This document shows positions 975 to 30,587 of a DNA stretch of 40,065 nt, piece after piece (position 1 is the first letter of the stretch; every line of letters begins with the position of its first letter). Under the pieces are notes generated by a model. That model had not been told where the DNA came from, ran no database searches, and saw only the letters and a list, made by a program, of their open reading frames with translations. The position numbers and the translations under genes are program-made. The DNA comes from Pseudotamlana agarivorans (GTDB taxonomy: Bacteria; Bacteroidota; Bacteroidia; Flavobacteriales; Flavobacteriaceae), in assembly GCF_001642835.1 (NCBI RefSeq), contig NZ_LXEI01000024.1, forward strand, positions 1 to 40,065. The letters run 5' to 3'.

Positions 975-1517
975 TTGGTTACACAGGATAATATAATTGG
1001 TAAAAGTGATTTAAAGGAAATATTCTATTTACATTATGATTCACTAGTAGTGTATGCAAAGCGATTTATATTTTCTTTGGATGCCTGTGAAGATTTAGTT
1101 CAAGATGTTTTTGTTGAATTATGGGAAAAAGACATAAAATTTCCTGATGTAGTTTCACTAAAAGCTTATTTATATAAAGTTGTTCGTAATAAATGTTACA
1201 ATATTATTAAGCATGATAAAATAAAAAACAAACATGCTGAAAATGTCAAACAAGCGATTGAGGATGATAATTTTTTTTTAAAACAAATAATTGAGGAAGA
1301 GGTGGTTAATTATTTGTATAAAGCCATTGATAAGCTTCCAGAAAGAAAAAAAGAGATTATCAAGTTAAGCCTTAAAGGTTTGAAAAATTATGAAATTGCA
1401 GAAGAGTTAGGTATAAAACTTCAAACAGTCAAAACATTAAAGTCTCAATCTTACAAAGTTCTGAGAGAACAATTTACAGAGCTAAGTGCTTTTATCTACT
1501 TTTTATTGATGGACTAA
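975..1517 (+). CDS. ECF RNA polymerase sigma factor (FecI/RpoE-like)
   Basis: A 180-residue sigma-70 family protein of the extracytoplasmic-function type. Region 2 is visible near residues 15-55 (LHYDSLVVYAKRF, then DACEDLVQDVFVELWEK), and region 4 near 118-165 (LPERKKEIIKLSLKGLKNYE, then GIKLQTVKTLKSQSYKVLRE), which is the helix-turn-helix for the -35 element. The only start that keeps region 2 complete is TTG at 975, because a stop lies 6 bases upstream. A FecR-type anti-sigma gene follows 215 bp downstream and an STN-containing SusC comes later. This is the usual sigma/anti-sigma/transducer arrangement by which Bacteroidota sense an imported ligand. It probably directs transcription of the SusC operon beginning at 4810. 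Confidence 0.9.
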   Translation: MVTQDNIIGKSDLKEIFYLHYDSLVVYAKRFIFSLDACEDLVQDVFVELWEKDIKFPDVVSLKAYLYKVVRNKCYNIIKHDKIKNKHAENVKQAIEDDNFFLKQIIEEEVVNYLYKAIDKLPERKKEIIKLSLKGLKNYEIAEELGIKLQTVKTLKSQSYKVLREQFTELSAFIYFLLMD

Positions 1518-1634
1518 GCAAAATCCTCATTATCGATAAAACCAATTTTTACAAAATTCAAATAAAAATCTCACTCTTTAATCGAATTTAAATGCTTGTT
1601 TTTTAGTGCTTTAAGTTTGTTTGTTTTTATTGTG

Positions 1635-1664
1635 AGGTGTTTTTTTATAAAAAAACTCCTTTTT
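1635..1664 (+). terminator. Possible weak terminator after the sigma factor gene
   Basis: AGGTGTTTTTT and AAAAAACTCCT can pair around a TATA loop with one mismatch, followed by TTTT. It is AT-rich, so stability is doubtful. It could separate the sigma factor transcript from the fecR transcript. Confidence 0.3.
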
Positions 1665-1732
1665 AATAGTACCATATTAAAACTTAGTTGTTCTATATAT
1701 AGTTAGTAGTCATATATAAATAGTTTAACAGA

Positions 1733-2905
1733 ATGATTGATTTTTTTAAGATATCCAAATTAATAATAAAAAAGTTTCTGAAGGTTTTAAATGAAGTCGA
1801 AAAAAATCAGTTAGAAAAGTTCAGTACCCAATATTCGTTTTTAAAAGAAGTAAGGGTGGAGTCCTTGATAGATAAGTTAGAGCAGTACTCATCAATAAAC
1901 AAAGATGAAGCATGGGAAGCTATAGTGGCAAAAATCGATAAAAAAAACTCAGAAGTTATTCCATTACAAAGAAAGTCTTGGTTTGGGTATGCAGTTGCCT
2001 CGGCTATTATTGGAATTTTATTTTCAGCCTATTTAATTAAAATCAATTATTTCAATTTTATAGAAAAATCAGCCCCAGTAATAGTTGAAACGAATAAAAT
2101 CGTACCAGGTACAAACAGAGCTACTTTAACTTTAGATGATGGATCTAGCGTTGTTTTAGAAAGAGGAGAGTCATATCGTACTAATGAAGCCAGCAGTAAT
2201 GGAGAACAAATAGTTTACAAGTCTGGACGGAATACTTTATCTGAAATAAAATATAATTATTTGACAATACCAAGAGGAGGGCAATTCTACATTGAGCTAT
2301 CCGACGGTACTAAAGTGTGGTTGAATTCAGAAACACAATTAAAATACCCAGTAAGTTTTACAGAAAAAGCGATACGTCAAGTAGAGCTTATTTATGGAGA
2401 GGCTTATTTTGATGTGTCTCCAAGTACCGAGCATCAAGGTTCAAAATTCATGGTAAGAAATAAAAATCAGGATATAGAGGTATTGGGTACTGAATTTAAC
2501 TTAAAGGCATATAAAGGCGAATCAAACATATATACTACTCTTGTAGAGGGGAAGGTATCCTTGTCTTCATCATTGGTAACTAGAATTTTAAAGCCAAAAC
2601 AGCAATTGAAGCTAAGTCTTTTAGATAATTCCATTTCTGTTGATTTGGTTGATGTTTATAATGAGACCTCATGGAAAGAAGGGGTATTTAGTTTTGATGG
2701 TAAAACACTTCATGAAGTAATGATGGTTTTATCACGGTGGTATGATGTTAATGTGACTTTTGAGAAAGAAATTGATAAGAAAGAGGAAGAGTTCGTTGGT
2801 CTTTTTAGTAAAAATAAGGAGTTAGAAAATATTTTAAATACAATGAAAAAATCAGGAATAATAAATAACTATAAAGTCAGTGGTAAAAAAATAATACTCA
2901 AATAA
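1733..2905 (+). CDS. FecR-family anti-sigma factor
   Basis: A 390-residue inner-membrane anti-sigma factor that would hold the ECF sigma factor at the cytoplasmic face and receive the signal from the STN domain of the SusC protein through its periplasmic part. The cytoplasmic head is about residues 1-80, including the WEAIVAKI region. A single membrane segment runs about 83-102 (WFGYAVASAIIGILFSAYLI). The FecR domain follows (TIPRGGQFYIELSDGTKVWL, then GEAYFDVSP and DIEVLGTEFNL), and the C-terminal DUF4974-type domain starts near residue 325 (LHEVMMVLSRWYDVNVTFE). It lies between the sigma gene and a secreted LTD protein, with 44 bp to the latter. Confidence 0.92.
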   Translation: MIDFFKISKLIIKKFLKVLNEVEKNQLEKFSTQYSFLKEVRVESLIDKLEQYSSINKDEAWEAIVAKIDKKNSEVIPLQRKSWFGYAVASAIIGILFSAYLIKINYFNFIEKSAPVIVETNKIVPGTNRATLTLDDGSSVVLERGESYRTNEASSNGEQIVYKSGRNTLSEIKYNYLTIPRGGQFYIELSDGTKVWLNSETQLKYPVSFTEKAIRQVELIYGEAYFDVSPSTEHQGSKFMVRNKNQDIEVLGTEFNLKAYKGESNIYTTLVEGKVSLSSSLVTRILKPKQQLKLSLLDNSISVDLVDVYNETSWKEGVFSFDGKTLHEVMMVLSRWYDVNVTFEKEIDKKEEEFVGLFSKNKELENILNTMKKSGIINNYKVSGKKIILK

Positions 2906-2949
2906 GAGTCATTAAAAAGGGATCTTTTGATATAAAAACTAAAAAAAAC

Positions 2950-4647
2950 ATGAAAAAAATTACATTATTTATTACAGTAGTATTAACAGCCTTTGCTGTT
3001 AAGGCCCAAACAACTGTTTTTCAAGAAAATTTTGAAACGGGTAATTCAGGAGTACAATCTGAAAATTGCAATGACAATATTAACGATTTTTTTGCTAGAA
3101 CAGATGGTTCAGATATAAGTACAGATTATAATGTATTAGGTAAGGAAGGAAATTACTTTTTTGCCGCTCAAGATTTAGACGGAGATTGTTCAAGTCCAAC
3201 TCAAACGTTAATGTTTGATGATATTAATATATCGGGATATACAAGTTTAGCATTGTCGCTTCTTGTTGCTGAAGATACAGCAACAGATGGCTTAGGTGAT
3301 TGGGACCCTGAAGATGTAGTTTCGATAGCAGTTGATTATGACAATAGTGGTACGTTTATTAATTTATTTCAATTTGTCGGAGCTGGTAATTCTACACCAG
3401 GATTAGATTCAGATAGTGATGGTATTATTGATGGAGCTTTGCTGTCAGATACTTTTGCAGAATTTACATCACCGTTAGGTACAGGGGACGTTATAGATGT
3501 GCTAATAACATTTACACTTAGTGCTGGAGACGAAGATATCGCGATTGATAATCTTAGTATAATAAATGGAGTTTCTCCTTCTGTGAGTTTTGATAATACT
3601 ATCACAAATTTAGAAGAAACAGATGATACGCAGTCTATATCTATTCCAGTTACGTTATTAGGGTATTCTGGTATTAATGTATCCTTAAATGTATCTGTAG
3701 ATGGTTCTAGTACAGTAGATCCTGGAGATTATACTTTAAACACGAGCTCACTTACTTTTACAGAAAATGGAACTCAAAATATTTTAGTTGATATTCATGA
3801 TGATGCAGACGCTGGTGAGTTAGAGACTTTAGTATTTGTCTTAACTGAAACTACATCAACAAATAGTATGTTATTGCAAAATATGCATACTGTTTTTATT
3901 CAAGATGATGATTTTTTAGTAGTAAATGAAGTATTAACAAGGCCAGATAGTGATGCGAACGGAGATGGAATAGGTAGTTCCTCAGATGATGAGTTTATAG
4001 AAATCATTAATAACAGTGGTTCAAGTATAGATATTTCAAATTATGAGATACATGATGGAGCTGCTATGAGACACGTGTTTCTTTCTACAACAATTCCAGC
4101 TGGAGAATCTATAGTTGTTTTTGGTGGAGGTACGCCAACAGGTATTTCAGGTTTAGTCCAGACTGCAAGTACGGGCAGTTTTTCTCTTAATAATGGTGGG
4201 GATACAGTAACACTTTATAATGGAGTAGGTGAAATATTACTTCAACATGTGTTTGGTTCAACGGCCAATCTTTCTGATGGATCTTTTGCCAGAGAACCAG
4301 ACATTACGGGAGATTTTGTATTTCATTCTACTATAGGAACTAATACAGTAAAATATTCACCAGGTTTAGATAACACTGATGGTACCACTTTAAATGTTAA
4401 GGACATTAAATCAAACGAAGGTTTGTTAATTTATAAAACAAGCAATAATACTTTAAAAGTAAATGGTTTGGAGACTTCTGTTGCTAATTTTAAAATGTAC
4501 TCAGTTGAAGGGAAGTTGGTGATTAATGAAAACTTATCAATTAATAAAGAATTTGATTTAGAGAGTTTTTCAGCTGGAGTATATTTTGTTATTATTCAAG
4601 ATAATAATTACACCTATTCAAAGAAAATATTACTAACGGATAAATAA
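2950..4647 (+). CDS. Secreted T9SS substrate with Calx-beta and lamin-tail domains
   Basis: A 565-residue surface protein. Residues 1-20 are a Sec signal peptide (ending AFAVKAQ). The next 190 residues form an acidic beta-rich region with DGDC, DSDSDGIIDG and DEDIAIDN stretches that may bind calcium. Residues about 210-318 resemble a Calx-beta domain (VSFDNTITNLEETDDTQSIS, then DPGDYTL and ITEN-like TFTENGTQ). Residues about 323-430 are a lamin-tail domain (VVNEVLTRPDSDANGDG, DEFIEIINNSG, IDISNYEIHDG). The last 80 residues are a type A T9SS sorting domain (FKMYSVEGKLV, AGVYFVIIQD, SKKILL). No catalytic site is visible, so an adhesive or scaffolding role is likely. Family descriptions note that bacterial lamin-tail domains co-occur with synaptojanin-like (EEP) and calcineurin-like hydrolases, both of which are nearby. 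Confidence 0.85.
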   Translation: MKKITLFITVVLTAFAVKAQTTVFQENFETGNSGVQSENCNDNINDFFARTDGSDISTDYNVLGKEGNYFFAAQDLDGDCSSPTQTLMFDDINISGYTSLALSLLVAEDTATDGLGDWDPEDVVSIAVDYDNSGTFINLFQFVGAGNSTPGLDSDSDGIIDGALLSDTFAEFTSPLGTGDVIDVLITFTLSAGDEDIAIDNLSIINGVSPSVSFDNTITNLEETDDTQSISIPVTLLGYSGINVSLNVSVDGSSTVDPGDYTLNTSSLTFTENGTQNILVDIHDDADAGELETLVFVLTETTSTNSMLLQNMHTVFIQDDDFLVVNEVLTRPDSDANGDGIGSSSDDEFIEIINNSGSSIDISNYEIHDGAAMRHVFLSTTIPAGESIVVFGGGTPTGISGLVQTASTGSFSLNNGGDTVTLYNGVGEILLQHVFGSTANLSDGSFAREPDITGDFVFHSTIGTNTVKYSPGLDNTDGTTLNVKDIKSNEGLLIYKTSNNTLKVNGLETSVANFKMYSVEGKLVINENLSINKEFDLESFSAGVYFVIIQDNNYTYSKKILLTDK

Positions 4648-4809: not shown

Positions 4810-7800
4810 ATGAAAATTAATTTAATACTAGTGCGCTGCAGTTTTCAAAAAGCGTGCCTAGTAAATATTATGAGAACATTTATATTTCTATTGTGTACAA
4901 CGGTTTTTAGTCTTTCAACGGATAAAGCTTTCTCACAAGACAAAATAATAATTTCAGAAGACCAAACTGTTACAGTCGATGAAGTTTTTGAAATTATAAA
5001 GAGTCAAACAAACTATAATTTTATTTATCGAAAAAAGGTTTTTCAAAATGCACCAAAAGTGCAATTAAAGAAAGGAGAAATACTTATTACAGAGTTGTTA
5101 AAAAAGAGTTTCTCTGGTAGTAATGTTAGCTATAAAGTTAATGTTGAAGATGTCATTATAATCCAAGAAAATGATTTTCAGAAAACTACACTAGATAACG
5201 ATGTGCAAGGGTATCAGGTGTCAGGTATAATCAGTGACCAAACTGGTTTTCCTTTGGTAGGTGCTAATGTGTATGAAAAGGGTATAAGTAATAAGGGGGC
5301 TCAAACAAATTTTGATGGTAGTTTTACCTTAAAAGTTAGTTATCAAAATGCTGTACTAGTAGTGTCATACGTTGGTTTTGTAACCAAAGAAGTGCCTATT
5401 GACGGGAAAGATTCACTTAATATAACGTTGCAAGAAGATACAACACAGTTAGATGAAGTTGTTATTGTTGGTTATGGAGAACAAAAAAAGGTTAATTTAA
5501 CAGGAGCTGTAGGTGTTGTAACAGCCGAAGAAATAAATGACAGACCTGTAATAGATCTTGCAAAAGCATTACAAGGAGCAGACCCTTCCGTGAACTTAAC
5601 CTTTAACACGGGTGTATTAGATTCAGGATACAATATTGATATTAGAGGAGGGGCGTCATTAAACAACTCTAACCCGCTGATTATTGCTGATGGTATAGAG
5701 GTCAATTTAAACCAGATAAATCCAAATGATATCGAATCTATTTCCGTACTAAAAGATATTTCAAGTGCAGCTATATATGGAGCTAGAGCGTCAGCAGGAG
5801 TAATTTTAATTACAACAAAATCGGGAAAAAACACCAATAATAAAGTTAAAGTTGATTTTAATACAAGAACAGGGTTTTCTCAAAATACAACATCAACAGA
5901 TTTTATAACCACAGGCTATGATCATGTTAGTATAGTAAACCAGTTTTATGAAGCTCATGAAGGAAGGCAAATGTTAGATTATGATTCTGATGAGATGCAA
6001 ATGCTTTACGATAGGAGAAAAGATAGAGTCGAGCATCCTGATCGTCCATGGGTTGTTGTTGGTGACGATAATAAATATAGATATTACGGTAATTTTGATT
6101 GGTTCAATTATTTCTATAGAAAAACACGTCCTGAAACTGAAAATAGTATTTCAATTAGTGGAGGTAATAAGAAAACAACATATTTTGTAAGTGGAAGACT
6201 AATGAAGCAAGATGGTATATATAGTATTTACCATGATAACATGACTTTTGGTACATTTCGTACCAATTTAAAAACAGAGATTAATCCTTGGCTTCGGTAC
6301 ACAAGTACTATAAACTATGCTAATAGAATTTATAAATACGCAGGTAGATTTCTAGAACAAGGAACAGTTAGTGAGCTTTCAAGAAAGGCCATAGCTACAT
6401 TTGTTCCAAGAAACCCAGATGGATCGATAGTACAGTATCCTACTCAATTCCTTCCTGGTTCTCCTATAGGTGGAGGACATGGAGGTTTTCTAACAGCTGA
6501 TAATTCACGCAATTCAAGAGGAACAAAAACTTTTATTATTTCTAATCAATTAGATTTAGATTTTAGAAAAGATTTAAGCCTTACCATGAATTATGCTTAT
6601 AAATATGAAACTCGGTTAATAAAATACCGTAGCAATACATTTGAATATTCTGATGAGTTGAATGTGTTTAATACGTATCAAGCAGGTTCTATTTATGATT
6701 ACTACAGAGAGCAACATAGAGGAAGAAATAACCATAACGTTAATCTGTATGCAACTTATAATCCTTATTTGAATAATAATCACAATTTAAAAATTGTTAT
6801 TGGAAATCAATTTGAGGAGTATAGAAACACCGATTTATCTGTAAGGCAGTATGATTTGTTAAATGAGGATTTAAGCACATTTGCAGTAGGTGCTGGAGAA
6901 ATAGAATTAGCACAATCCATAAATGCATTTAAAAACTTAGGCTTTTTTGGGCGTTTAAATTACGATTATAAAGGGAAATACCTTTTTGAGGTGAGTGGAC
7001 GTTTTGACGGAACATCTAGATTTAGGAAGGAAGAGCAATGGGGATTCTTTCCTTCTGGATCTTTTGGGTGGAGAATGAGTGAAGAAAGTTTTTGGGAGGG
7101 TATAAACCCAGTAATAAATAACAGTAAACTTAGATTGTCATATGGGAGTTTAGGTAATCAGCAAGTTGATAATTATGCCACTTTTGAAGAAATATCACCG
7201 GATATCCAAATGGAATACACTTTCGATGGTACTTCTAGAGCAAGCAGTGCAGGCATATCCAATCCTATTTCATCTTCTTTAACATGGGAAACAGTGTCAA
7301 TGCTCAATATAGGTTTAGATTTATCTTTCCTTAAAAACCGTATAAATTTAACATATGATTATTATGTTAGGGATACTAAAGATATGTTGCAACAGTCTTT
7401 AACGCTTCCTGCTGTATATGGTGCTGCCACACCAACGGCGAATACAGCAAACCTACGAACAAAAGGTTGGGAATTAGACCTTTCGTGGAACGATCATTTT
7501 AAATTAAAAGAGTCTCCTTTTGAATATAATTTAGGATTTACATTAGGAGATTATGTAACAAAAGTAACTAAGTACAACAATCCAGATAAATTAATAGATG
7601 AATTCTATGAAGGTCAGACACTAGGTGAAATGTGGGGCTATAAAGTAGCTGGGTTATTTGCAAGTGACGAATATGCCTCTGCTTACCAAGCGATAATTGA
7701 CGATAGTGCTGTAAACAGAAGAGTGTATAACGGGTCTGTAAATAATTACCTGTTAGCTGGAGATGTTGAGTTTATAGACCTTAATGGAGATAACGTCATC

Positions 7801-8382
7801 AATGAAGGCTCAGGTACTGTAAATGATTCAGGAGACAAAAGAGTCGTTGGAAATAGTCTACCACGGTATTCTTACTCCTTTAGAATTGGGGCAAATTGGA
7901 AAGGTTTTGAAATATCTGCTTTCTTCCAAGGTGTAGCAAAGCAAGATTGGTTTGCAAAACCTGAAACAACAGATCTTTGGGGGCCTTTTGCATACCCAGG
8001 AGCATCTTTTATACATAAAGATTTTGCGTCAAATTATTGGACTGAAAATAATCCAGACGCATATTTCCCAAGACCTCGAGGATATCAAGCATATGCAGGC
8101 AGTTCTTTAAATGTTGTGTCAGATCGATATCTTCAGGATGTATCATACCTAAGACTAAAAAACTTAACCATTGGCTATACAATTCCAACTGCGATAAAAG
8201 GCTTGGATAGTGTTAAAATATATGCCACTGGGGAAAATTTGTTTTACTGGAGCAAATTAAAGCGTAATACATTAACTATTGACCCCGAGCTAACAAATAC
8301 TAATGCAACTTATAATGCAAATACAGGGCTAGGCTATTTTTATTCTAAGACGATTTCTGTAGGTGCCAACATATCAATCTAA
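4810..8382 (+). CDS. SusC/RagA-family TonB-linked outer-membrane transporter with STN signalling domain
   Basis: A 1190-residue TonB-dependent transporter. The signal peptide lies in the first about 43 residues. ATG 4870 (MRTFIFLLC) would give a shorter signal peptide, but the longer N-terminus from 4810 is common in STN-type SusC proteins. In order: STN domain about 50-118, carboxypeptidase-D-like domain about 136-210 (VSGIISDQTGFPLVGANVYE, then NFDGSFTL), SusC signature and plug from about 215 (LDEVVIVGYGEQKKVNLTGA, ISVLKDISSAAIYGARASAG), then the 22-strand barrel to the C-terminus (KTISVGANISI). The STN domain is the part that signals to FecR, matching the upstream sigma/anti-sigma pair. 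The substrate cannot be read from the sequence. The susD partner starts 17 bp downstream. Confidence 0.95.
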   Translation: MKINLILVRCSFQKACLVNIMRTFIFLLCTTVFSLSTDKAFSQDKIIISEDQTVTVDEVFEIIKSQTNYNFIYRKKVFQNAPKVQLKKGEILITELLKKSFSGSNVSYKVNVEDVIIIQENDFQKTTLDNDVQGYQVSGIISDQTGFPLVGANVYEKGISNKGAQTNFDGSFTLKVSYQNAVLVVSYVGFVTKEVPIDGKDSLNITLQEDTTQLDEVVIVGYGEQKKVNLTGAVGVVTAEEINDRPVIDLAKALQGADPSVNLTFNTGVLDSGYNIDIRGGASLNNSNPLIIADGIEVNLNQINPNDIESISVLKDISSAAIYGARASAGVILITTKSGKNTNNKVKVDFNTRTGFSQNTTSTDFITTGYDHVSIVNQFYEAHEGRQMLDYDSDEMQMLYDRRKDRVEHPDRPWVVVGDDNKYRYYGNFDWFNYFYRKTRPETENSISISGGNKKTTYFVSGRLMKQDGIYSIYHDNMTFGTFRTNLKTEINPWLRYTSTINYANRIYKYAGRFLEQGTVSELSRKAIATFVPRNPDGSIVQYPTQFLPGSPIGGGHGGFLTADNSRNSRGTKTFIISNQLDLDFRKDLSLTMNYAYKYETRLIKYRSNTFEYSDELNVFNTYQAGSIYDYYREQHRGRNNHNVNLYATYNPYLNNNHNLKIVIGNQFEEYRNTDLSVRQYDLLNEDLSTFAVGAGEIELAQSINAFKNLGFFGRLNYDYKGKYLFEVSGRFDGTSRFRKEEQWGFFPSGSFGWRMSEESFWEGINPVINNSKLRLSYGSLGNQQVDNYATFEEISPDIQMEYTFDGTSRASSAGISNPISSSLTWETVSMLNIGLDLSFLKNRINLTYDYYVRDTKDMLQQSLTLPAVYGAATPTANTANLRTKGWELDLSWNDHFKLKESPFEYNLGFTLGDYVTKVTKYNNPDKLIDEFYEGQTLGEMWGYKVAGLFASDEYASAYQAIIDDSAVNRRVYNGSVNNYLLAGDVEFIDLNGDNVINEGSGTVNDSGDKRVVGNSLPRYSYSFRIGANWKGFEISAFFQGVAKQDWFAKPETTDLWGPFAYPGASFIHKDFASNYWTENNPDAYFPRPRGYQAYAGSSLNVVSDRYLQDVSYLRLKNLTIGYTIPTAIKGLDSVKIYATGENLFYWSKLKRNTLTIDPELTNTNATYNANTGLGYFYSKTISVGANISI

Positions 8383-8399
8383 AAAATAAGTAATTTAAG

Positions 8400-16096: not shown

Positions 16097-16143
16097 GCGT
16101 AGATATCATAATTCGATTAAAGTCATAACAAACTAACAACTTG

Positions 16144-20450: not shown

Positions 20451-20765
20451 AAGAAGCAAGTCCTTAGACTTTTCTTTAGCTTTTTTTTAGTTCGGCTACA
20501 AATTTAGATCCTAACTGTTTAGTTGCTTGATTTCCTTCTGAAGCGCTTTAATACGTGTTATTTCGTCTTTGGTTTCCACTTTTATCGTAGTGTTCATAAG
20601 GTCTTTACGTTTGTACTTCCTAATCCATTCATTAATGGTTGTAGGTGCAATAACTTAGAGTTTACCGAGTTGATACTTGTTTAACTTTCCGGTGGTAAGT
20701 TTGTCTAAAATTTTTAATTTAAAGAGTTCTGAATACCGTCTAATTTCTTTGTCATTTTTGTACAT
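20450..20765 (-). pseudogene. IS3 orfA (transposase helix-turn-helix subunit), broken
   Basis: From ATG at 20765 the minus strand reads MYKNDKEIRRYSELFKLKIL, DKLTTGKLNKYQLGKL, stop, VIAPTTINEWIRKYKRKDLM, then KVETKDEITRIKALQKEIKQ followed by further stops. This is the HTH_Tnp_1 N-terminus and the leucine-zipper region of an IS3 OrfA. The first stop falls inside the helix-turn-helix, so no functional DNA-binding subunit can be made. Confidence 0.75.
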
Positions 20766-20780
20766 AATGTTTAAAATTAT

Positions 20781-20804
20781 GTAGCCTTTATTCAGGACGG
20801 GTCA
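20781..20804 (-). repeat. IS3 element terminal inverted repeat, right
   Basis: Read on the minus strand it starts TGACCCGTCCTGAATAAAGG and pairs with the left repeat. It lies 16 bp upstream of the orfA start codon, as expected for an IS3 left (promoter-proximal) end. Confidence 0.7.
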
Positions 20805-21730: not shown

Positions 21731-24322
21731 ATGTTTTCATTTCGATGGCTTTTTTACATCTTTTTTTCTGCTTCAATTTCTCTTTATTCTCAAAACGCTT
21801 ATAAAATACATTCCCATAACGATTATACTCAACAATCACCATTTTGGAGAGCATATACAAGTGGCTTAGAGTCTATTGAAGTAGACGTGTTTTTGAAAAA
21901 TGATATGCTATGTGTGGCGCATGAAGAATCTGAAATAAGCCTCCAAAACACATTAGAATCATTATATCTTGAACCTCTAAAAAAAATATCGACTACACCT
22001 TTAGCAGAAGCTCAAGAGGTTCAGCTTCTTATTGATATAAAATCTGAAGCATATGCTACGCTAAAAGCTATTGAAAAGGCTTTAAAAAAATATCCTGAGC
22101 TTATAATTAATAAAAAATTACATTTTGTAATATCTGGCAACAGACCTTCTGTAAAAGATTATAATAACTATCCTGATTATATTTTATTTGACTATCAAAG
22201 TCTAGAACCTATTCCAGATAAAAGTTTAAATAAAATAGCTTTAATAAGTTTAAGTTTTAAAACGTTTTCAAAATGGAAAGGAGCATATGCTTTAAATGAC
22301 AATGAGTATAATCAAATAAAAAAAATTGTAGATGCAGCACGTGCTCAGGGAAAACCATTTCGGTTTTGGGGAGCACCAGATACGGAAATAGCTTGGCGAA
22401 CTTTTAATAAAATGGGGGTCAGCTTTATAAATACAGATCATCCGTTATTATGTGCTAATTACCTAAACAAAGTTAATAATACAATTAAGGATATTAAAGT
22501 CGCTTTTGTATCTGATATCCATTTTCAAGATATATATGGACAGCTTTCAGATCACTCTTTCAAAGGTGTTTTTAATAATGAAACTAATATATACACACTG
22601 TTAAGAACTATGGATGCACAATTGCATTCCACCAGAATTTTTAATGAAAATTATTTTGCTCTATTTGCTGTTTTAGATGATATTGTGGAAAGAGGAATTA
22701 AGTATGTTGCTTTACCAGGCGATTATACTGATGATGGACAAACAATTCATTTAAGAGGACTGCAACGTATTTTAAAAGCATATGAAACGAAACATGGATT
22801 GCAATTTTTTATAACCACAGGAAATCATGATCCTGTGGGACCTTTTGCTCAAGACTCTGGAAAATCAGACTTCATGGGAGAAAACGGTCAGACTCAAGGC
22901 ATTTATAGTTATAAAAGGACATCGGAGAAGAGTTCTAAAAAAGTACCAGATATACTATCAAAAGATTTAAAAAAAATGGGGTATGAAGGGGTATTCAACC
23001 ATTTAAAATCGTTTGGGTTTTATCCTCAAGAGAACTATTTATACTGGGAGACACCTTTTTCTAAATACACGCCAGAGACTTATACTTACCAAAACGCTTT
23101 AGATGCAGCATTACTAGACCATAGATTGTATGATATGATGCCTGGTTGTACAATACCAGATGCAAGTTATCTTGTAGAGCCTGTACCAAATCTATGGCTT
23201 CTTGCTATAGATGCAAATGTATATTTACCTAAAGACTCTTTAACAGGAATGGCTATAGATCCAAAAAATTATAAGGGAGCTAGTATTGGGTATAATAATG
23301 TTTTAACACATAAAACACATCTATTAAAATGGATAAAATCAGTCTCAGAAGAAGCTGAACGTTTAAATAAAACTCTAATAACATTTAGTCATTATCCAAT
23401 TATAGATTTTAATGACGATGCTTCAAAAAATATAGAGTCGTTTTTTGGCGATAAAAAATGGCAATTAGAACGCATCCCGGTAGAAAAAGTGGCACAGTCG
23501 TTTTCAGATGCAGGAATCACCATACATGTAGCGGGACATATGCATATAAATGATACTGGTGTTAGAACGTTTGAGGATGGAAAATCAATTGTTAATATTC
23601 AAACACCATCTATAGCAGCTTATATTCCTGGTTATAAAATTTTAAATATAAAGAGTGATAAAACTGTAGAGGTCACTACAATTGCTATTGATAGTGTGCC
23701 AAAGTTTAATGACCTCTTTTCGCTCTATGAAAAAGAATATAATTATTTAAAACAAAATGAACTTCCGTTATGGAATCATGATATTTTAAATAGTAAATCT
23801 TATCATGACTTTACTATGTTTCATTTAAAAGAGCTGGTTCGTTTACGTTTTCTTGAAGACGATTGGGAACCTAATTTTAAGGATGTAATGCTAAACCTTT
23901 CTGGAGAAGATTTACTTATAATACCTTTTTTAAATACGAGTTTAGATTTAAAGAGGCTTACTCAGCACAAAGAGTTATATAAAACAAATTGGGAGTCTGC
24001 AAAAGTTAAAGCAGAATTGGCTTTACAAGACACCGCCTTTAAATTAGATGATTTTAAAGGTTGGAGTGGACTAGATATAATCTTTGATTTTTACAGAATT
24101 AGAAATGCCGATGTATTAGCTATTTCAGATATAGGTGAGAAACAAATAGCTATTTATAAATGGTTATTTTATGTTACAGATTTTTATATGAAAAGCAATA
24201 GTGATTTAAATCGAACTAAACTATTAGAGTTTTATAATATATTTTCTAAGTTTTTAAATGGTGCTCCAGCAGATCATTTTAGTATTGATTATAAAACAGG
24301 TAGAATACAACCTCTTGATTGA
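21731..24322 (+). CDS. Secreted fusion of glycerophosphodiesterase-like and calcineurin-like phosphoesterase domains
   Basis: An 863-residue protein with a signal peptide (about 1-21, ending LYSQN). Residues about 24-240 resemble a GDPD/PI-PLC-type TIM barrel: HSHNDY (His27, His29), IEVDVF (Glu50, Asp52), VAHEE, LLIDIKSE and the closing INTDHP. Residues about 255-640 are a metallophosphoesterase with all metal-binding motifs: SDIH (Asp262, His264), GDYTDDG (Asp331), GNHD (Asn365, His366), FSHYP (His554) and GHMH (His603, His605). The last about 220 residues are helical and unassigned. The combination could hydrolyse a phosphodiester and then remove the exposed phosphate in one polypeptide. 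It is convergent with the PI-PLC-like gene, with only 7 bp between stops. Confidence 0.85.
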   Translation: MFSFRWLFYIFFSASISLYSQNAYKIHSHNDYTQQSPFWRAYTSGLESIEVDVFLKNDMLCVAHEESEISLQNTLESLYLEPLKKISTTPLAEAQEVQLLIDIKSEAYATLKAIEKALKKYPELIINKKLHFVISGNRPSVKDYNNYPDYILFDYQSLEPIPDKSLNKIALISLSFKTFSKWKGAYALNDNEYNQIKKIVDAARAQGKPFRFWGAPDTEIAWRTFNKMGVSFINTDHPLLCANYLNKVNNTIKDIKVAFVSDIHFQDIYGQLSDHSFKGVFNNETNIYTLLRTMDAQLHSTRIFNENYFALFAVLDDIVERGIKYVALPGDYTDDGQTIHLRGLQRILKAYETKHGLQFFITTGNHDPVGPFAQDSGKSDFMGENGQTQGIYSYKRTSEKSSKKVPDILSKDLKKMGYEGVFNHLKSFGFYPQENYLYWETPFSKYTPETYTYQNALDAALLDHRLYDMMPGCTIPDASYLVEPVPNLWLLAIDANVYLPKDSLTGMAIDPKNYKGASIGYNNVLTHKTHLLKWIKSVSEEAERLNKTLITFSHYPIIDFNDDASKNIESFFGDKKWQLERIPVEKVAQSFSDAGITIHVAGHMHINDTGVRTFEDGKSIVNIQTPSIAAYIPGYKILNIKSDKTVEVTTIAIDSVPKFNDLFSLYEKEYNYLKQNELPLWNHDILNSKSYHDFTMFHLKELVRLRFLEDDWEPNFKDVMLNLSGEDLLIIPFLNTSLDLKRLTQHKELYKTNWESAKVKAELALQDTAFKLDDFKGWSGLDIIFDFYRIRNADVLAISDIGEKQIAIYKWLFYVTDFYMKSNSDLNRTKLLEFYNIFSKFLNGAPADHFSIDYKTGRIQPLD

Positions 24323-24329
24323 TTAATCT

Positions 24330-25391
24330 CTAATTTCCTGTTACAGGATTCTCTCTAATGTATGTGTAATTTTTAAACGAGATGTGGTAGTCACTTTTAA
24401 ATAACTTACTCGGTAAATAATAATCTGTAGTAATAATTTGTGCGCCAGAAAGCTTGGCCATGTTAAAATGCGAATAATCATTTGCACGGGCTTCTTTTGT
24501 TCCTGCATCTGCACGCGTTCTTACAATATATCCTTTAGAAACTAACGTTTTAATGGAATTATCTTCTGGGTTGTTTCTAAATAAAGTTGCGGCTTCAGGT
24601 GTTCCAGGAACAGCATTAACAAACATCACGCGGTTTTTTAGAGCAGCATGATTTTCTATATATAAATCTCTTTTACGGCCAGAGTCGTCTAGAATAAAAA
24701 GAAATTTACCTCTAGCGGCTTTTAATTCTGGCCAATTGTTATGTAACACAGCAGCCTCTAATGTTGCATAATTACCTCTTACAACATCGGGAGTAATTAA
24801 TTTGTTTATACCTAAACCTTTAATTAAAGCGATATCTAATTCGTTAAAGAGTTGTTTAGAAAATAGTTCTGGCATGGTGCCAAATACATTTTCTTTTCCA
24901 TCTTTAGCTTCTAAAGTTATAAATATAGGGTCGTGGTTTGGATTTAAATCAGACCACTTTTTTATATCATTTAAGCAGCTTTGTAATGTGTAATAATGCG
25001 TTCTAAAATCTATATCTAAAATGTGTAAGATTTTAAAACCAGGTTGTAACATTTCGTTCATAGGGTCATAACTTTCATCTATGTCTGCTAATTCTAAACC
25101 TTTCGGATTTGCATACGAACCACCTTTAGAATCTGCAAATACATCAATTTCAAGATTTCTTAATCCCATATTTAATTGTTCAACTATAGGTATATGTTCA
25201 TACTGTAAAGTTTGTATACTACGAGTAGTATCTTTTTTTTCTAAAACCTCATACAGTTTAGGTTCTATCTCTTTTTTATAACTGTTATGAGAACCTATAA
25301 CTTGAATTTGATTAATTCTATAATTATCGTACTGTGCACCTACGTCATAACATAATAAACAATGTAAACATATTGACAAAAAATATCTCAT
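24330..25391 (-). CDS. Secreted PI-PLC-like phosphodiesterase (Ca2+-dependent SaPLC1-type)
   Basis: A 353-residue protein related to phosphatidylinositol-specific phospholipase C1-like proteins. ATG 25391 (MRYFLSICLH, signal ending VGAQY) is preferred to TTG 25412. Catalytic-type residues are His35-Asn36 (IGSHNSYK), Glu81 and Asp83 (NLEIDVF), and His123 (ILHILDIDF), followed by IFITLEAKDG and ARGKFLFILDD strands of the TIM barrel. Family members cleave glycerophosphoinositol-type phosphodiesters and, in some, need calcium. It is transcribed towards the GDPD/phosphoesterase gene and away from the second susC, so the intergenic region 25392-25772 may regulate both directions. Confidence 0.87.
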   Translation of the reverse strand: MRYFLSICLHCLLCYDVGAQYDNYRINQIQVIGSHNSYKKEIEPKLYEVLEKKDTTRSIQTLQYEHIPIVEQLNMGLRNLEIDVFADSKGGSYANPKGLELADIDESYDPMNEMLQPGFKILHILDIDFRTHYYTLQSCLNDIKKWSDLNPNHDPIFITLEAKDGKENVFGTMPELFSKQLFNELDIALIKGLGINKLITPDVVRGNYATLEAAVLHNNWPELKAARGKFLFILDDSGRKRDLYIENHAALKNRVMFVNAVPGTPEAATLFRNNPEDNSIKTLVSKGYIVRTRADAGTKEARANDYSHFNMAKLSGAQIITTDYYLPSKLFKSDYHISFKNYTYIRENPVTGN

Positions 25392-25772
25392 AATAAAATA
25401 AGTGTTAGTCAACTAAAGTACATATTTAAGATTAAGTTAATGTTAGCTAATCAAAAACAATATGTAATACCTCTTGTTATTCCAGTTCAAAAATAACTCA
25501 AGTCAAAACACTGTATAACAAAGTGTTATCTATTTTTTGAATTGCGTTTTACTCATAGTTAATTTAACACTATCATAAAGATTAGCTAAAATTAGATCCC
25601 TCAAAATTCCATTATTTTGCTTCTTAAATTTTTTATTAAAACAAAACAATCTAATTAATTTCTAAATCTTTATAGTATATGAATTAACAAAAACTAAAAA
25701 CATAAAAAAACCGCAGTTGCTACGAACAACTACGGCCAAATCATTAAGCATTGTAACACAAATAACTTAAAA
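25392..25772. other. Divergent intergenic region between PI-PLC-like gene and second susC
   Basis: A 381-bp AT-rich stretch with no coding frame of note. It should contain the promoters of both flanking genes and the leader of the susC mRNA, including the hairpin at 25711-25735. A TATTTTGC stretch near 25613 is close to, but not exactly, the -7 consensus. Confidence 0.5.
25711..25735 (+). promoter_or_regulatory. Structured leader hairpin upstream of second susC
   Basis: CCGCAGTTG and CAACTACGG pair over 9 positions (one C:A mismatch) around a 7-base loop CTACGAA. It lies 37 bp before ATG 25773 and is the only GC-rich patch in an AT-rich leader. No T-run follows, so it is more likely a leader stem affecting translation, mRNA stability or small-RNA binding than a terminator. 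Confidence 0.5.
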
Positions 25773-28700
25773 ATGTTCAATAAATATAACTTTTTTTTAT
25801 TAAAAAATATAATTTTTTTAATATTATTAGTAGTTAGTCAGATAGGGTATTCTAGCAACTACGAATCAAAAAAAATAGTACAATCGAATAATAATACTCA
25901 AAAAACAATTAAAGGTAAGATTGTAGACGACACAGGTATACCCTTATATGGAGCTTCCATTTTATTAAAAGGTACAATCCAAGGTGCTTCTACAGATTTT
26001 GATGGGAAATTTTCTATTGAAGCAAAAATAGGACAAACACTTCAAATATCTTATATGGGGTATGAAACTAAAGAAGTGGTTATAGATTCTGAATTTTTAA
26101 CCATTACATTAAATCTTTCAAATGCTGTATTAAACGAAGTTTTATTAGTTGGTTACGGCAAACAAAAAAAATCAGATTTAACAGGAGCTGTCGCTCAGCT
26201 TTCTTCTAAAGATTTCAAAGAAGGTGTAAATATTTCGCCAGACAACTTAATTCAAGGTAAAGTTTCAGGTGTACGTGTAATTCAGTCTAGTGGAGAGCCT
26301 GGAGCAGGAGTAGATGTCTCTATTCGAGGTGTTGGATCTATTAGAAGCGGAAGTACGCCTTTATTTGTGGTAGACGGCGTGCCATTAAGTAACTCTAGTG
26401 TGAGTTCTGAAAGTCCAGACTTTGGTTTGGGGAATTCTAGTGCAAAGAACCCGTTAAACTTCTTAAATACTAGTGATATTGCGTCAATTACAGTATTAAA
26501 AGATGCTTCTGCTGCTGCTATCTATGGAGCTAGAGGGTCTAATGGTGTTGTTATAATAACGACTAAACAAGGAAAAACAGGTGATGCTACTATTACTGTA
26601 GATTCATATTTAAGTGTGGCGTCTGTTATTAAGAAAATAAATGTTTTATCAGCCGATGAATATCGTAGTGCAATCAATGATACTGCCTATGATCATGGAG
26701 GAAATACAGATTGGCAAGATCAATTATTTAGAGATGGCGTAACACAAAACAACAACTTTTCTTTCTCTAAAAAGACAGAAAGTGGAAATTACTATACATC
26801 ACTTTCTCTAATGGATCAAGATGGTATTGTTCAAAGTAGTACGTTTAAAAGAGCTACAGCACGTTTAAATGCAGAAGAGTCTTTCTTCGATGATAAACGT
26901 TTAAAGGTAAAAGTAAACTTAACGGCAAGTCAAATCAATGAAACTGGAGTTCCTAATGGTGCAGATGCTGGATCAGATGGACAGTTAATTATTCATGCTT
27001 TAATGGCTAATCCTACACAACCTGTTTTTGATGAGAATGGAGAATATACAAACTTCAATCTAAATCAAAACTATAACCCAATGTACTTATTAGATATTTA
27101 CGACGATCACACAAGTACGTTAAGAGTTTTAGGTAATGTTGAAGCTTCATTTAGAATTATAGATGGGTTAAATTACAAATTTAATTATGGTGTAGATCGT
27201 TCTGTTTCAGAAAGAAACTCTACTATTTATCCAAACGTAACAGATAGAACCCCAGAAGGAGCATATGTGCAAAATAATTTAGATTCAGAAAATACTTTAA
27301 TGGAACATTACTTAACGTATAATTTCGATTTTAATAAAAATAATTTCGAAGTATTAGGTGGGTTTTCTTATCAAAAATTTAATTTCTCTGGAACTAATTT
27401 TTCTTTAACAGGAATAGATGAAAAAGGTACAGGTGTTGCACCTGAATATGATCCTGGTTATTCTGGTACCCAAAACGGTGTTGGTGGTTATGCTCAGGAA
27501 AATGAGTTACAGTCATACTTCGGAAGATTAAATTATAATTATAATAATAAATATTTAGTTACGGCCTCGTTACGTGCTGATGGTTCTACACGTTTTGGAG
27601 AGAATAATAAATACGGTTATTTCCCATCTTTTGCTTTAGGTTGGAACTTAGATCAAGAAGAATTTTTAAGTAATATAGATGATTTAAATGCTCTAAAATT
27701 AAGACTTAGTTGGGGAGAAACAGGAAACCAAGAGGTCCAGAATAAAATTACTCAAGCCAGTTACTCACAATCTGCTTCAGGTGGTTATTATTTATACGAC
27801 AATTATAATTTAATTAATGGTATTGTTGTTAATAGAACTGCTAATCCAGATTTAAAATGGGAAGTTGTAACGCAGTTAAACATAGGAGCAGATTTTAGCT
27901 TCTGGAATAATAGACTTTATGGCTCTTTAGATTATTATAATAAAACAACTACAGATGCTATATTAAATATTCCAGCAGAACCATTAAGCCCGACAACTAC
28001 GGTGTGGAAAAATATTGATGGAGAAATTGTAAATAAAGGATTCGAATTTAGTTTAGGTACACAACTTGTTAGTACAGATAATTTTTCATGGTCTTTAGAT
28101 GTTAATGGGGCAACATTAGATAATGAAGTAACAAATTTGCCTGTTTCTGAATTATATTCAGGAAGTGTAGCAGGTCCAGGTTTATCGGGAGTAGCAGCAA
28201 ATATCTACAAAAGTGGTTATGAGGCCGGGTCGTTTTTTATGTTAAAACATTTAGGCTTCGACGAAAATGGCGTTGATGTTTTTGAAGATATTAATAATGA
28301 TGATATTATTAATAGTGACGATCGTCAGATTTTTGAAGGTGCCTTACCAAATTTTACTTACGGGATTAATACAAACCTTTCTTATAAGCGTTGGGATTTA
28401 AGCTTAGCATTTATAGGACAAACTGGAGGGCTATTAGTGAACAATACTAATTTAGCTTTAAATATTAATAACATAGTTTCAGATAGAAACGTATTATCTG
28501 AATTTTATTATGATGGTGCCAGTTATACAAATACTCCTCAACTGTCTACTTTATATCTTGAAAAATCTAATTTTTTCAGGTTAAATAATGCGCGTATTGG
28601 TTATTCTTTAGATGTTGAAAAACTAAATTTAAATTGGTTAAAAGGACTTAATTTTTATGTAAGCGGCCAAAACTTGTTCACCATTACTAATTATTCAGGT

Positions 28701-28817
28701 TACGACCCATTGGTTAACAGTCCGCGTGCTACAAATGGAAATCAATCTATTGGTATAGACTATACAACTTACCCATCTTCTAAAACTTATATGTTAGGAG
28801 CTACATTAAAATTATAA
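25773..28817 (+). CDS. SusC/RagA-family TonB-linked outer-membrane transporter (no STN domain)
   Basis: A 1014-residue transporter: N-terminal signal region (about 1-28), carboxypeptidase-D-like domain about 45-118 (IKGKIVDDTGIPLYGASILL, DFDGKFSIEA), SusC signature LNEVLLVGYGKQKKSDLTGA near 120-139, plug (ISIRGV-like VSIRGVGSIRSGSTPLFVVD, ITVLKDASAAAIYGARGSNG), then barrel strands to KTYMLGATLKL. It lacks the STN domain of the transporter at 4810, so it is unlikely to be wired to the FecI/FecR pair. The susD partner begins 3 bp after its stop. The adjacent phosphodiesterases suggest a phosphate-ester ligand, but the sequence alone does not show it. Confidence 0.95.
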   Translation: MFNKYNFFLLKNIIFLILLVVSQIGYSSNYESKKIVQSNNNTQKTIKGKIVDDTGIPLYGASILLKGTIQGASTDFDGKFSIEAKIGQTLQISYMGYETKEVVIDSEFLTITLNLSNAVLNEVLLVGYGKQKKSDLTGAVAQLSSKDFKEGVNISPDNLIQGKVSGVRVIQSSGEPGAGVDVSIRGVGSIRSGSTPLFVVDGVPLSNSSVSSESPDFGLGNSSAKNPLNFLNTSDIASITVLKDASAAAIYGARGSNGVVIITTKQGKTGDATITVDSYLSVASVIKKINVLSADEYRSAINDTAYDHGGNTDWQDQLFRDGVTQNNNFSFSKKTESGNYYTSLSLMDQDGIVQSSTFKRATARLNAEESFFDDKRLKVKVNLTASQINETGVPNGADAGSDGQLIIHALMANPTQPVFDENGEYTNFNLNQNYNPMYLLDIYDDHTSTLRVLGNVEASFRIIDGLNYKFNYGVDRSVSERNSTIYPNVTDRTPEGAYVQNNLDSENTLMEHYLTYNFDFNKNNFEVLGGFSYQKFNFSGTNFSLTGIDEKGTGVAPEYDPGYSGTQNGVGGYAQENELQSYFGRLNYNYNNKYLVTASLRADGSTRFGENNKYGYFPSFALGWNLDQEEFLSNIDDLNALKLRLSWGETGNQEVQNKITQASYSQSASGGYYLYDNYNLINGIVVNRTANPDLKWEVVTQLNIGADFSFWNNRLYGSLDYYNKTTTDAILNIPAEPLSPTTTVWKNIDGEIVNKGFEFSLGTQLVSTDNFSWSLDVNGATLDNEVTNLPVSELYSGSVAGPGLSGVAANIYKSGYEAGSFFMLKHLGFDENGVDVFEDINNDDIINSDDRQIFEGALPNFTYGINTNLSYKRWDLSLAFIGQTGGLLVNNTNLALNINNIVSDRNVLSEFYYDGASYTNTPQLSTLYLEKSNFFRLNNARIGYSLDVEKLNLNWLKGLNFYVSGQNLFTITNYSGYDPLVNSPRATNGNQSIGIDYTTYPSSKTYMLGATLKL

Positions 28818-28820
28818 TTT

Positions 28821-30587
28821 ATGAAAATGTCAAATATAATATCAAGAACAACTCTTATCTTTTTCCTAAGTGTATTCGTTTTTAGTTGTACAGATTTAGA
28901 AGAAGATGTAATAGATGAAGTTATTGGAGGAGAAACCTCTAATCCAGAAAGTGCAATGGCTGCTGCCTATGGACAGCTAGCAGAAGGTACATTTACAGAT
29001 CACGGTAGTGTATTTGGGCTGCAAGAGTACCCAACAGATGAGTGTATGTTGCCTACGCGTGGTAGCGACTGGGGAGACGGAGGTAAATGGAGAGCTTTAA
29101 CAGAGTTTACTTGGGGAACCAATAATGCTGCGGTTTCTACAGCTTGGAATAATCTTACAAGCGGTATTACTAAAACCTTAACAGCTATAGTGTCTTTACA
29201 AGAAAATCCGGATTACGAAAATCACGATTTATTTATAGCTGAAGCTAGAGGTTTATTAGTGCTTTATGTGTATACCACTTTAGATTTGTTTAATCAAGCA
29301 CCTTATAGGGATGTGTTTTCAGAAGATAAATCTTTAGTTTTTCTTCAAGCAGAATCTGCTATAGACGACTTAATTATTGAAGTTGAATCAATTATTCCTA
29401 ACCTTGTAAACTTGGGGGAACAACAAACAAATAATGGTCGATTTACCAAACAAGCTGCATATGCGTTACTTGCAGATATGTATTTAAATAGAGCTGTTTT
29501 TAAAGACCGTTATAATGAGACTTCTAGTTTTAACTTTATGGCCTCTGCTGTGGATAACGATGGAACAGATATGGATAAAGTGATTTATTACACGTCTTTA
29601 TTAATTAACGGAAACTTTAGTTTAGAAAGTAACTACTTTGATAATTTCGCAATTGATAATACACACGGATCTGAAATAATTTTTGCAGTTATACAAGAAA
29701 ACGATAATATAAGACGTAGTGATAACGATTTTGCATATATGTCTACTGCTAGAGCTCAGAAACAAACTCCAGACAACAGAGGAACAAATGGCTCTTGTGT
29801 AGAACCAGAATTTTATTATACATGGGAAGGAAATCATGACGATCCTAGATTTCATAGATACTATCAGTATTCTGATGGGACATGGTTTATGAATGATGGT
29901 ACTACAGAAAGTTTGCCAGCTGAAGACACAAGACCGGATACTGGTAAATATCTAGTTCACTTTAATAGAGGGCTTCAAGTAGGACAACAATATGGACCAA
30001 CACTTAGTGGCGATGGTGAATTTGATATGACTGAAGATGGGAGAATTGCAATTAGTAAACTTTACATGGAAAAGAATACAACTATTCCTATGGATTTTAC
30101 ACCTGAAATGGATTTTAATAATCCTTTAGAAGCTGTATTATCTCAAGATCAAATTAACCGAGGTGTGCGTAATTTTAAATGGGAATTCGATCCAGAAAAT
30201 GGAAATGGTAATAGTGCCGTTGATGTTCCGTTATTTCGTTTAGGAGGAATGTATGCAATGCGAGCAGAAGCTTATTACCGTAAAGGATCAACGGCTCTTG
30301 CTTTAGCAGATGTTAACATACTTAGAACAAGCAGAACACGCGAAGCTTTATTTGATAATGCTCCAGGAACTGCAATAGCTTCTATAGACGAAGAAATTTT
30401 ATATAATGAAATTGGTTTCGAAATGTACTGGGAAATGTATCGTAGAAAACAAATGATTCGTTTTAATACTTACGATAGAGCTTATACAGCCAAAGCTTTA
30501 ACAGAGCCGTATTTAAGAGTATTTGCCATTCCTCAATCTACTATAGATGTTACAGAAGGTATCACTCAGAATTTTGGATATAATTAA
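28821..30587 (+). CDS. SusD/RagB-family surface lipoprotein
   Basis: A 588-residue SusD-like lipoprotein with lipobox Cys23 (VFVFSCTDLEED). Typical features are AMAAAYGQLAEGTF near the start, QAAYALLADMYLNRAVFKD in the TPR region, LFRLGGMYAMRAEAYYRKGS, and the C-terminal EIGFEMYWEMYRRKQMIRFN and RVFAIPQSTIDV segments. ATG 28827 is a possible alternative start. It is co-translated with the preceding susC and followed after about 70 bp by a strong terminator. Confidence 0.94.
   Translation: MKMSNIISRTTLIFFLSVFVFSCTDLEEDVIDEVIGGETSNPESAMAAAYGQLAEGTFTDHGSVFGLQEYPTDECMLPTRGSDWGDGGKWRALTEFTWGTNNAAVSTAWNNLTSGITKTLTAIVSLQENPDYENHDLFIAEARGLLVLYVYTTLDLFNQAPYRDVFSEDKSLVFLQAESAIDDLIIEVESIIPNLVNLGEQQTNNGRFTKQAAYALLADMYLNRAVFKDRYNETSSFNFMASAVDNDGTDMDKVIYYTSLLINGNFSLESNYFDNFAIDNTHGSEIIFAVIQENDNIRRSDNDFAYMSTARAQKQTPDNRGTNGSCVEPEFYYTWEGNHDDPRFHRYYQYSDGTWFMNDGTTESLPAEDTRPDTGKYLVHFNRGLQVGQQYGPTLSGDGEFDMTEDGRIAISKLYMEKNTTIPMDFTPEMDFNNPLEAVLSQDQINRGVRNFKWEFDPENGNGNSAVDVPLFRLGGMYAMRAEAYYRKGSTALALADVNILRTSRTREALFDNAPGTAIASIDEEILYNEIGFEMYWEMYRRKQMIRFNTYDRAYTAKALTEPYLRVFAIPQSTIDVTEGITQNFGYN

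Follow-up and report, generated by a model that had tools for sequence, protein, structure and literature searches.

Two neighbouring SusCD loci of Pseudotamlana agarivorans with a probable role in organic phosphorus uptake

Introduction

The closest described relative of part of the DNA considered here is PUSI of Flavobacterium johnsoniae, which comprises an extracytoplasmic function (ECF) sigma factor (Fjoh_4171), the SusC/SusD pair PusC1 and PusD1 (Fjoh_4169 and Fjoh_4168) and two phosphodiesterases (Fjoh_4172 and Fjoh_4173) with domains PF00149 and PF16670 (PMC8115612). Phosphate depletion raises the transcripts of all five genes (PMC8115612, Table 1), and the authors consider nucleic acids and the head groups of lipids to be likely substrates (PMC8115612). 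We analysed a stretch of 40,065 nt from Pseudotamlana agarivorans that makes up a whole contig (NZ_LXEI01000024.1; hereafter, the window). The part studied, positions 975-30587, carries two SusCD pairs together with several phosphoesterases, and we refer to the genes around the first pair as locus A and to those around the second as locus B.

Two other systems provide further comparisons. In Escherichia coli, glycerophosphodiesters are taken up by Ugp/GlpQ-GlpT. The gut relatives of locus A likewise pair a glycerophosphodiester phosphodiesterase (GDPD) with a GlpT/UhpC-like transporter of the major facilitator superfamily (MFS), whereas the outer-membrane step in the locus A type is a SusCD pair and locus A of the window lacks such a transporter. 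The mannosyl-6-phosphatase of PDB entry 4c1r is encoded by BT3783 in the yeast-mannan polysaccharide utilization locus (PUL) of Bacteroides thetaiotaomicron; locus A encodes a homologue of this enzyme but has no mannosidase. With PUS systems in general, locus A shares a SusCD pair accompanied by phosphoesterases instead of carbohydrate-active enzymes.

Results

Gene content of the two loci

Our reading, which we hold with fairly good confidence, is that the window carries, side by side, two systems of the PUS kind that take up organic phosphorus independently of each other. A first-pass annotation of the same DNA had seen one region for the capture of organophosphates such as nucleic acids and knew of no described system with this composition. 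The capture of organophosphates stands, on the basis of conserved neighbourhoods and the published finding that the counterpart of locus B is induced at low phosphate; the single region, the nucleic acids and the absence of a described system do not. The genes of the two loci are as follows.

Locus A
975-19133, plus strand: locus A as a whole
975..1517, plus: ECF sigma factor (PF04542/PF08281)
1733..2905, plus: FecR-type anti-sigma factor (PF04773 and PF16344 FecR_C)
2950..4647, plus: lamin-tail-domain protein with a type IX secretion system (T9SS) sorting tail (PF00932, PF18962; 885 bits to a conserved protein of the related locus L001)
4810..8382, plus: SusC1, with a long N-terminus (TIGR04056, 800.7 bits; a weak STN match, E 0.0069, is below cut-off)
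8400..10127, plus: SusD1, lipoprotein (PF07980, 1.5e-44)
10222..11196, plus: EEP1, lipoprotein hydrolase of the endonuclease/exonuclease/phosphatase (EEP) fold (PF03372, 1.5e-19; 4c1r, 4.6e-24)
11260..13173, plus: lipoprotein with fn3, PKD and PQQ beta-propeller domains, likely a surface protein (PF00041, PF18911, PF13360/PF13570)
13187..14065, plus: EEP2, secreted EEP hydrolase (PF03372, 6.1e-18; 4c1r, 1.6e-62; 3mpr, 7.9e-63)
14307..15146, plus: protein with a T9SS tail (PF18962, just below cut-off)
15188..16096, plus: Fib_succ_major-like secreted protein (PF09603, below cut-off; stronger members in L002 and L008)
16141..17493, plus: thioredoxin-like protein (PF13905), of locus A or a neighbour
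17550..19133, plus: SASA-type esterase (PF03629, 4.1e-12; the SASA match in L002 is weak, 8e-4, below cut-off)

Between the loci
19666..20801, minus: decayed transposase, IS3-like by inference (rve_3, rve and HTH_Tnp_1 fragments in different frames)

Locus B
21731-30587: locus B as a whole
21731..24322, plus: GDPD-metallophosphatase fusion of 863 aa (PF13653; metallophosphatase motifs)
24330..25412, minus: phosphatidylinositol-specific phospholipase C (PI-PLC), Ca-dependent type, PI-PLC-C1 (PF16670, 8.1e-124; PI-PLCs 5fyo and 3h4w in the PDB)
25701..25781, plus: hairpin leader ending at the susC2 start codon (model R1; pair counts)
25773..28817, plus: SusC2, the PusC1 counterpart (TIGR04056, 733 bits; 63% identical to that of L194)
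28821..30587, plus: SusD2, the PusD1 counterpart (PF07980, 1.3e-11; 56% to L194 and 96% to L094)
30817..31737, minus: AraC-type regulator downstream of SusD2, its tie to locus B uncertain

The two SusC/SusD pairs, the two EEP hydrolases, the GDPD/metallophosphatase fusion and the PI-PLC-like enzyme, all of which had been recognized in the first pass, were borne out by domains or motifs. Signal peptides or lipoboxes, judged by eye without a predictor, are visible in EEP1, EEP2, the PQQ protein, SusD1, SusD2, the fusion and PI-PLC; that of EEP2 places its start at ~13187, the listed open reading frame (ORF) start at 13040 being too early. No catalytic glycoside hydrolase or lyase family was detected with Pfam in 26 of the 28 ORFs that reach 100 aa; the other two, at 5472-5837 (minus) and 37514-37930 (plus), both overlap larger genes on the opposite strand. 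Here too the first description holds. It had overlooked the carbohydrate-esterase-like SASA protein at 17550-19133. The combination of SusCD with glycoside hydrolases or lyases that marks a classical glycan PUL is not found in 975-30587, which has this one esterase only; the PQQ protein also matches the carrageenase beta-propeller model PF25292 (4.9e-7), which is a non-catalytic domain. The SASA protein and the Fib_succ-like protein at 15188-16096 have a similar N-terminal module (IGT..P..SA..EVSS..KGFL.PR) and unlike C-terminal parts.

Separation of locus A from locus B

The interval from 19.1 to 21.7 kb is devoid of ORFs of 100 aa and contains broken minus-strand pieces of a transposase (rve_3, 2.7e-10; rve, 0.0091; HTH_Tnp_1, 0.0047). 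In a sample of 299 genomes of the family, relatives of SusD1 (called at E <= 1e-60) occur in 29 and relatives of SusD2 in 32, the window's own being counted in each. Reading of these lists gave 12 genomes with both types, 11 besides the window, and in all 11 the two genes are on different contigs (G094, G129 and G289, where linkage across contig ends could still exist) or at least 70 kb apart, the nearest being ~71 kb (G212) and ~103 kb (G297). Because of the decayed transposase and this lack of linkage, we regard the DNA as holding two loci, which look like independent import systems, and reject the single two-part locus of the first-pass annotation.

The nearest relative of locus A, L001 of Flavivirga (SusD1 87% identical), differs in the genes beyond EEP2, as judged from a stretch covering 10 kb downstream of SusD1 compared with the 11.6 kb to locus B in the window, and its genome has a single SusD2 match, 39% identical, located elsewhere. 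The nearest relative of locus B, L094 (SusD2 96%), comes from genome G014, which is not among the 29 with a SusD1 match.

Locus B and PUSI

Identity between the window and L194 is 56% for SusD, 63% for SusC, 65% for PI-PLC-C1 and 51% for the metallophosphatase. Genes in L194 follow the order tabulated for Fjoh_4168-4173: SusD2-SusC2-FecR-ECF on the minus strand, then PI-PLC (plus) and the metallophosphatase (minus). In Table 1 of PMC8115612, the names and Pfam numbers of Fjoh_4172 and Fjoh_4173 look swapped; the order in L194 fits the names. Locus B shares with PUSI an orthologous PusC/PusD pair, an adjacent PI-PLC-C1 (24330-25412) and calcineurin-type phosphodiesterase (21731-24322), and the same leader hairpin at the susC start. 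It differs in that a GDPD domain is fused to the metallophosphatase, in that an AraC gene follows SusD2, and in that no ECF or FecR gene lies between 19133 and 30817. These regulators are also missing from beside SusC2 in L094-L097, L199, L209 and L210; since they are not adjacent, we regard locus B as a regulatory variant within the orthologous group and not as a full PUSI. Judged by sequence, it is nevertheless the species' counterpart of PUSI, and the window's copy would be expected to respond to phosphate. The earlier view that no system of such composition had been described gives way to this correspondence. Locus B adds to the known PUSI kind a member with a fusion and changed regulation.

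From the family sample we took 25 of the 32 other SusD2 rows, in 24 stretches, and from genus g127, which is probably Flavobacterium, 20 of the 30 genomes (among 150) with SusD2 at E <= 1e-150, a 21st being L099. PI-PLC lies within 8 kb of SusD2 in 26/26 of the relatives taken that are at least 53% identical, with a GDPD or metallophosphatase match in 20/26; for the 20 loci of g127 the figures are 20/20 and 16/20. In 19 rows at 33-37% identity, PI-PLC is found in 3 and a GDPD, metallophosphatase or AlkP-GDPD_2 match in 16, many of the low-score matches in distant rows being AlkP-GDPD_2 proteins. A protein of this type in L100 has the domain pair given for PhoA1 in PMC8115612, which also covers PUSII and other PUS clusters.

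In locus B, PI-PLC keeps GSHNSY and the other near-invariant columns of its family (41 sequences). The 863-aa protein has Pfam matches only to GDPD_2 (2.6e-7) and, weakly, GDPD (0.0078), and by sequence no credible solved relative was found for it (best E 0.87). Its metallophosphatase half retains D262/H264, G330-D331, GNHD at 364-367, H554 and GHMH at 602-605, motifs that are kept in an alignment of 34 sequences; residues 239-862 are 51% identical to a 641-aa protein of L194, two members of whose family match PF00149. In L199 and L210, which lack ECF/FecR, two adjacent genes encode the GDPD (253-256 aa) and the metallophosphatase (560-565 aa). A single protein of 863 aa replaces them in the window and L094, and this fusion supports joint action of the two activities. 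Inositol phosphates or phospholipid head groups are plausible substrates.

Whether the lipid might be a more elaborate one is raised by the neighbours of some relatives. Glycosyl-inositol-phospholipids of the GIPC type, from plants or algae, have the structure glycan-GlcA-inositol-P-ceramide, and locus B and its PI-PLC relatives could forage such lipids and not plain phosphatidylinositol. Genes for glucuronate isomerase (UxaC) and TRAP transport adjoin 6 of 44 SusCD2-family loci, from different genera (L095, L100, L107, L113, L140, L141), the isomerase being found in none of 34 control SusD loci and TRAP genes in one (L174). A head group made of glucuronate, inositol and phosphate, as in GIPC, would fit these neighbours. 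By inspection, the PF16670 genes present in 21 of the 299 family genomes, the window's included, comprise 10 beside SusCD2-type pairs (again with the window), 9 in another kind of cluster (L128, L130-L137) and 2 elsewhere (L129, L138). All 9 clusters of this other kind have a GH92-type match, with GH115 in 6 and a metallophosphatase in 8; L131 has GH92, two GH29, GH3, GH115 and a hybrid two-component regulator (HTCS), and L128 has GH28 and GH92. From these gene sets the nine are candidate loci for glycosyl-inositol-phospholipids such as plant GIPC. Extending such foraging to locus B is doubtful, however: locus B itself has no glycosidase, an isomerase is nearby in only one (L095) of the 26 closest SusCD2 loci, and UxaC is absent from the window genome, so that glucuronate catabolism in this species was rejected.

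The susC2 leader

A leader of 81 bases with a hairpin in it ends at the start codon of susC2. The hairpin, together with a conserved TTAAGCATTGT/CAATAACTTAA-like block that reaches to the susC start codon, is present in the window (25701-25781) and in L094-L099, L194-L198, L200-L208, L211-L213, L081 and L154. We built model R1 from the window, L094-L097 and L081, and these therefore match by construction. Outside this set it matches L098, L099 and 17 of the 20 g127 loci, where the susC start codon always falls within the end of the match, and L154, from another family of the order, where the match precedes a SusC-like ORF and adjoins a PI-PLC-like ORF. R1 found nothing at E <= 1 around the 14 further SusD loci of the genome; in a wider search it matched 9 of 60 genomes at E <= 0.1, several of these matches being weak and not before susC. 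Rfam gave no gathering-level match in the window, and weak matches near the leader look like chance.

Among 24 aligned leaders, 6 of the 9 pairs show changes on both sides, and 83.8% of cells are paired compared with 75.6% in shuffles (0/500 as high), relatedness being uncontrolled. Against the hairpin, the two outermost pairs do not form in 10-11 of the 24 sequences, and sliding the partner by +3 gives a covariation score of 0.143 versus 0.126, though just 60.4% of cells are then paired. It is possible that the PUSI-type susC leader is a translational or small RNA control element.

Locus A and its relatives

For SusD1 we assembled 47 loci: 9 on GTDB contigs (L001-L009 of 33, the weaker or partial L010-L033 being omitted), 25 of the 39 other family rows, and all 13 other rows of a phylum sample of 395 genomes, 13 of which (counting that of the window) have SusD1 at E <= 1e-100. 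The GTDB contigs and the sampled genomes may include the same species. Scoring as positive any EEP, GDPD, metallophosphatase or nucleotide pyrophosphatase/phosphodiesterase (NPP) match above 60 bits by phmmer within 8 kb of SusD1, we found such an enzyme in 31/47 loci, including L168 (barely, at 62 bits) and excluding L081, in which just the query's GDSL half is matched; with Pfam, L164 and L166 gain a metallophosphatase. The 7 closest relatives (55-87% identity) are all positive, and the link is weaker at lower identity. As controls, L190 among them, we used the remaining 14 SusD loci of the window genome and 20 hand-picked along the PF07980 list of 41 family genomes. None had an EEP, GDPD, PI-PLC, NPP or metallophosphatase match (0/14 and 0/20, thus 0/34) in a screen with the same phmmer queries alone, a few of the control stretches being shorter than 20 kb.

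In L001, PafA (677.7 bits; curated cut-off 650) is placed between the EEP1 and PQQ genes. Three loci of gut Bacteroides (L003-L005, the last from B. cellulosilyticus DSM 14838) combine SusCD1 with two GDPD genes (GDPD-DUF4996 by Pfam in L003, by phmmer in L004 and L005), a sulfatase-superfamily gene and an MFS gene, which in L003 scores best to the PgtP/UhpC/GlpT models, below their cut-offs. MFS genes of the GlpT/PgtP/UhpC kind occur in 8/47 SusD1 loci (L002-L008, L163) and in 0/34 controls. The Carboxylicivirga locus L002, with an EEP1-like gene, GDPD, a second EEP, Fib_succ, the weak SASA match and MFS, bridges the gene sets of the window and of the gut bacteria. The EEP/GDPD/MFS set is undescribed in the accessible part of PMC8115612, although inner-membrane organic phosphorus transporters are mentioned with Fig. 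6. Our searches of the open-licence literature brought up no description of an EEP/GDPD SusCD system with organophosphate-antiporter-like genes; the one matching precedent that they gave for the region as a whole was PMC8115612. By its gene content locus A appears to be a less-known relative of the PUS kind, and a response to low phosphate is predicted. In L083 and L085, relatives of SusD1 stand beside a metallophosphatase-PQQ propeller fusion and a DAO-family FAD oxidoreductase, an arrangement that mirrors the separate PQQ protein of the window.

The two EEP proteins bear on the substrate. Both keep the 15 near-invariant EEP columns (24 sequences), EEP2 is homologous to 4c1r over 240 residues, and the only activity named among the four PDB matches of each is mannosyl-6-phosphatase. 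They resemble sugar-phosphate phosphatases rather than nucleases, and the DNase reading is unsupported. The EEP fold does include nucleases, and weak exoIII-type NCBIfam matches exist, far below cut-off. A single locus for extracellular nucleic acids, in which the EEPs act as DNases and SusCD imports oligonucleotides, is nevertheless highly improbable: no PDB match names a DNase, the window genes that were scanned include no nucleoside gene, and the halves are split by the dead transposase and were not found linked elsewhere. Nothing specific in this analysis favours the nucleic acids proposed in the first pass.

Since both EEPs match 4c1r, a phosphosugar substrate is a live rival for locus A. 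SusCD1 might take up phosphorylated, phosphomannan-like oligosaccharides from which the EEPs remove sugar-6-phosphates, with glycosidases encoded elsewhere. The strength of the 4c1r matches, the SASA esterase and fn3-PKD proteins, the UhpC/UhpT-type resemblance of the transporter in relatives and the matches to GH92, an alpha-mannosidase family, in four distant SusD1 loci (L091, L092, L146, L147) would all fit. However, no glycoside hydrolase is present in locus A or among the scanned genes of L001-L005, and close relatives carry GDPD, which acts on glycerophosphodiesters, where the window has EEP. We consider this phosphoglycan route possible but the less probable one.

Several observations weigh against our reading of two phosphorus uptake systems. 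By the phmmer method 16/47 SusD1 loci lack the enzymes in question; L169, L170, L173 and L081 carry AP_endonuc_2 TIM-barrel isomerase-like genes in place of phosphoesterases; and several loci below 38% identity hold sulfatase or GH92-like genes (the latter in the four distant loci just named), which means that the substrates of SusD1-like proteins are not confined to phosphorylated ones. The best SusD1 match in F. johnsoniae is a distant one (34%), and its expression data therefore do not cover locus A. Locus A of the window contains neither an MFS transporter nor a PafA gene. A direct-repeat scan of 30 PI-PLC upstream regions demonstrated no Pho box, the counts at period 11 (28 versus a shuffled mean of 18.5, standard deviation 7.8) and period 10 (28 versus 19.7, standard deviation 7.7) being unconvincing. 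A GCTAAC element in the window and 7/40 other regions scanned is a lead only, and the one PhoX match in the genome itself is weak (30.1 bits; cut-off 24). The neighbouring GH92 and TIM-barrel genes in distant SusD1 loci lower our confidence in the main reading very slightly; it remains fairly good.

Downstream, the minus strand of 30817-39698 encodes three AraC-type regulators (one beside SusD2), two short-chain dehydrogenases/reductases, an NmrA-like protein, an alpha/beta hydrolase and TetR, and looks like an unrelated oxidoreductase/regulator island.

Discussion

From the observed domains, kept active-site columns, synteny and correspondence with PUSI, we infer the substrates, direction of flow, cellular locations and phosphate response of the window's own copies. 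In locus B, PI-PLC would cut inositol-phosphate head groups, or similar phosphodiesters, off lipid; SusC2/SusD2 would bring in the soluble phosphodiester or phosphomonoester; and in the periplasm phosphate and the alcohol would be set free by the GDPD-metallophosphatase. In locus A, SusC1/SusD1 under ECF/FecR control may bind a phosphorylated small molecule or oligosaccharide, which the secreted EEPs would dephosphorylate, as GDPD, metallophosphatase or PafA may do in relatives, where an organophosphate-antiporter-like protein could take up the resulting sugar- or glycerol-phosphate.

A wider picture, which we put forward tentatively and consider unlikely to hold in full, is that PUSI-type loci and their PI-PLC relatives form a widespread route of Bacteroidota to inositol-phosphate lipid head groups, including those of plant GIPC sphingolipids, and that SusCD1-type loci form another route, which in gut Bacteroides would lead all the way through both membranes. 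In this second route SusCD would capture glycerophosphodiesters or phosphosugars, GDPD or EEP would cut them, and a GlpT/UhpT-like antiporter would import the phosphate ester.

SusCD pairs are usually read as glycan importers. Here two SusCD families are tied to phosphoesterases across many genera, and one of them is already known to answer phosphate starvation. For the SusD1 family, the question of substrate is now directly testable in culturable gut Bacteroides, which have a related SusCD pair, two GDPDs and an organophosphate-antiporter-like gene together. PI-PLC loci beside glucuronate and alpha-glucuronidase genes suggest that a lipid head group serves as a nutrient; the scavenging of phosphorus would then be connected with plant sphingolipids.

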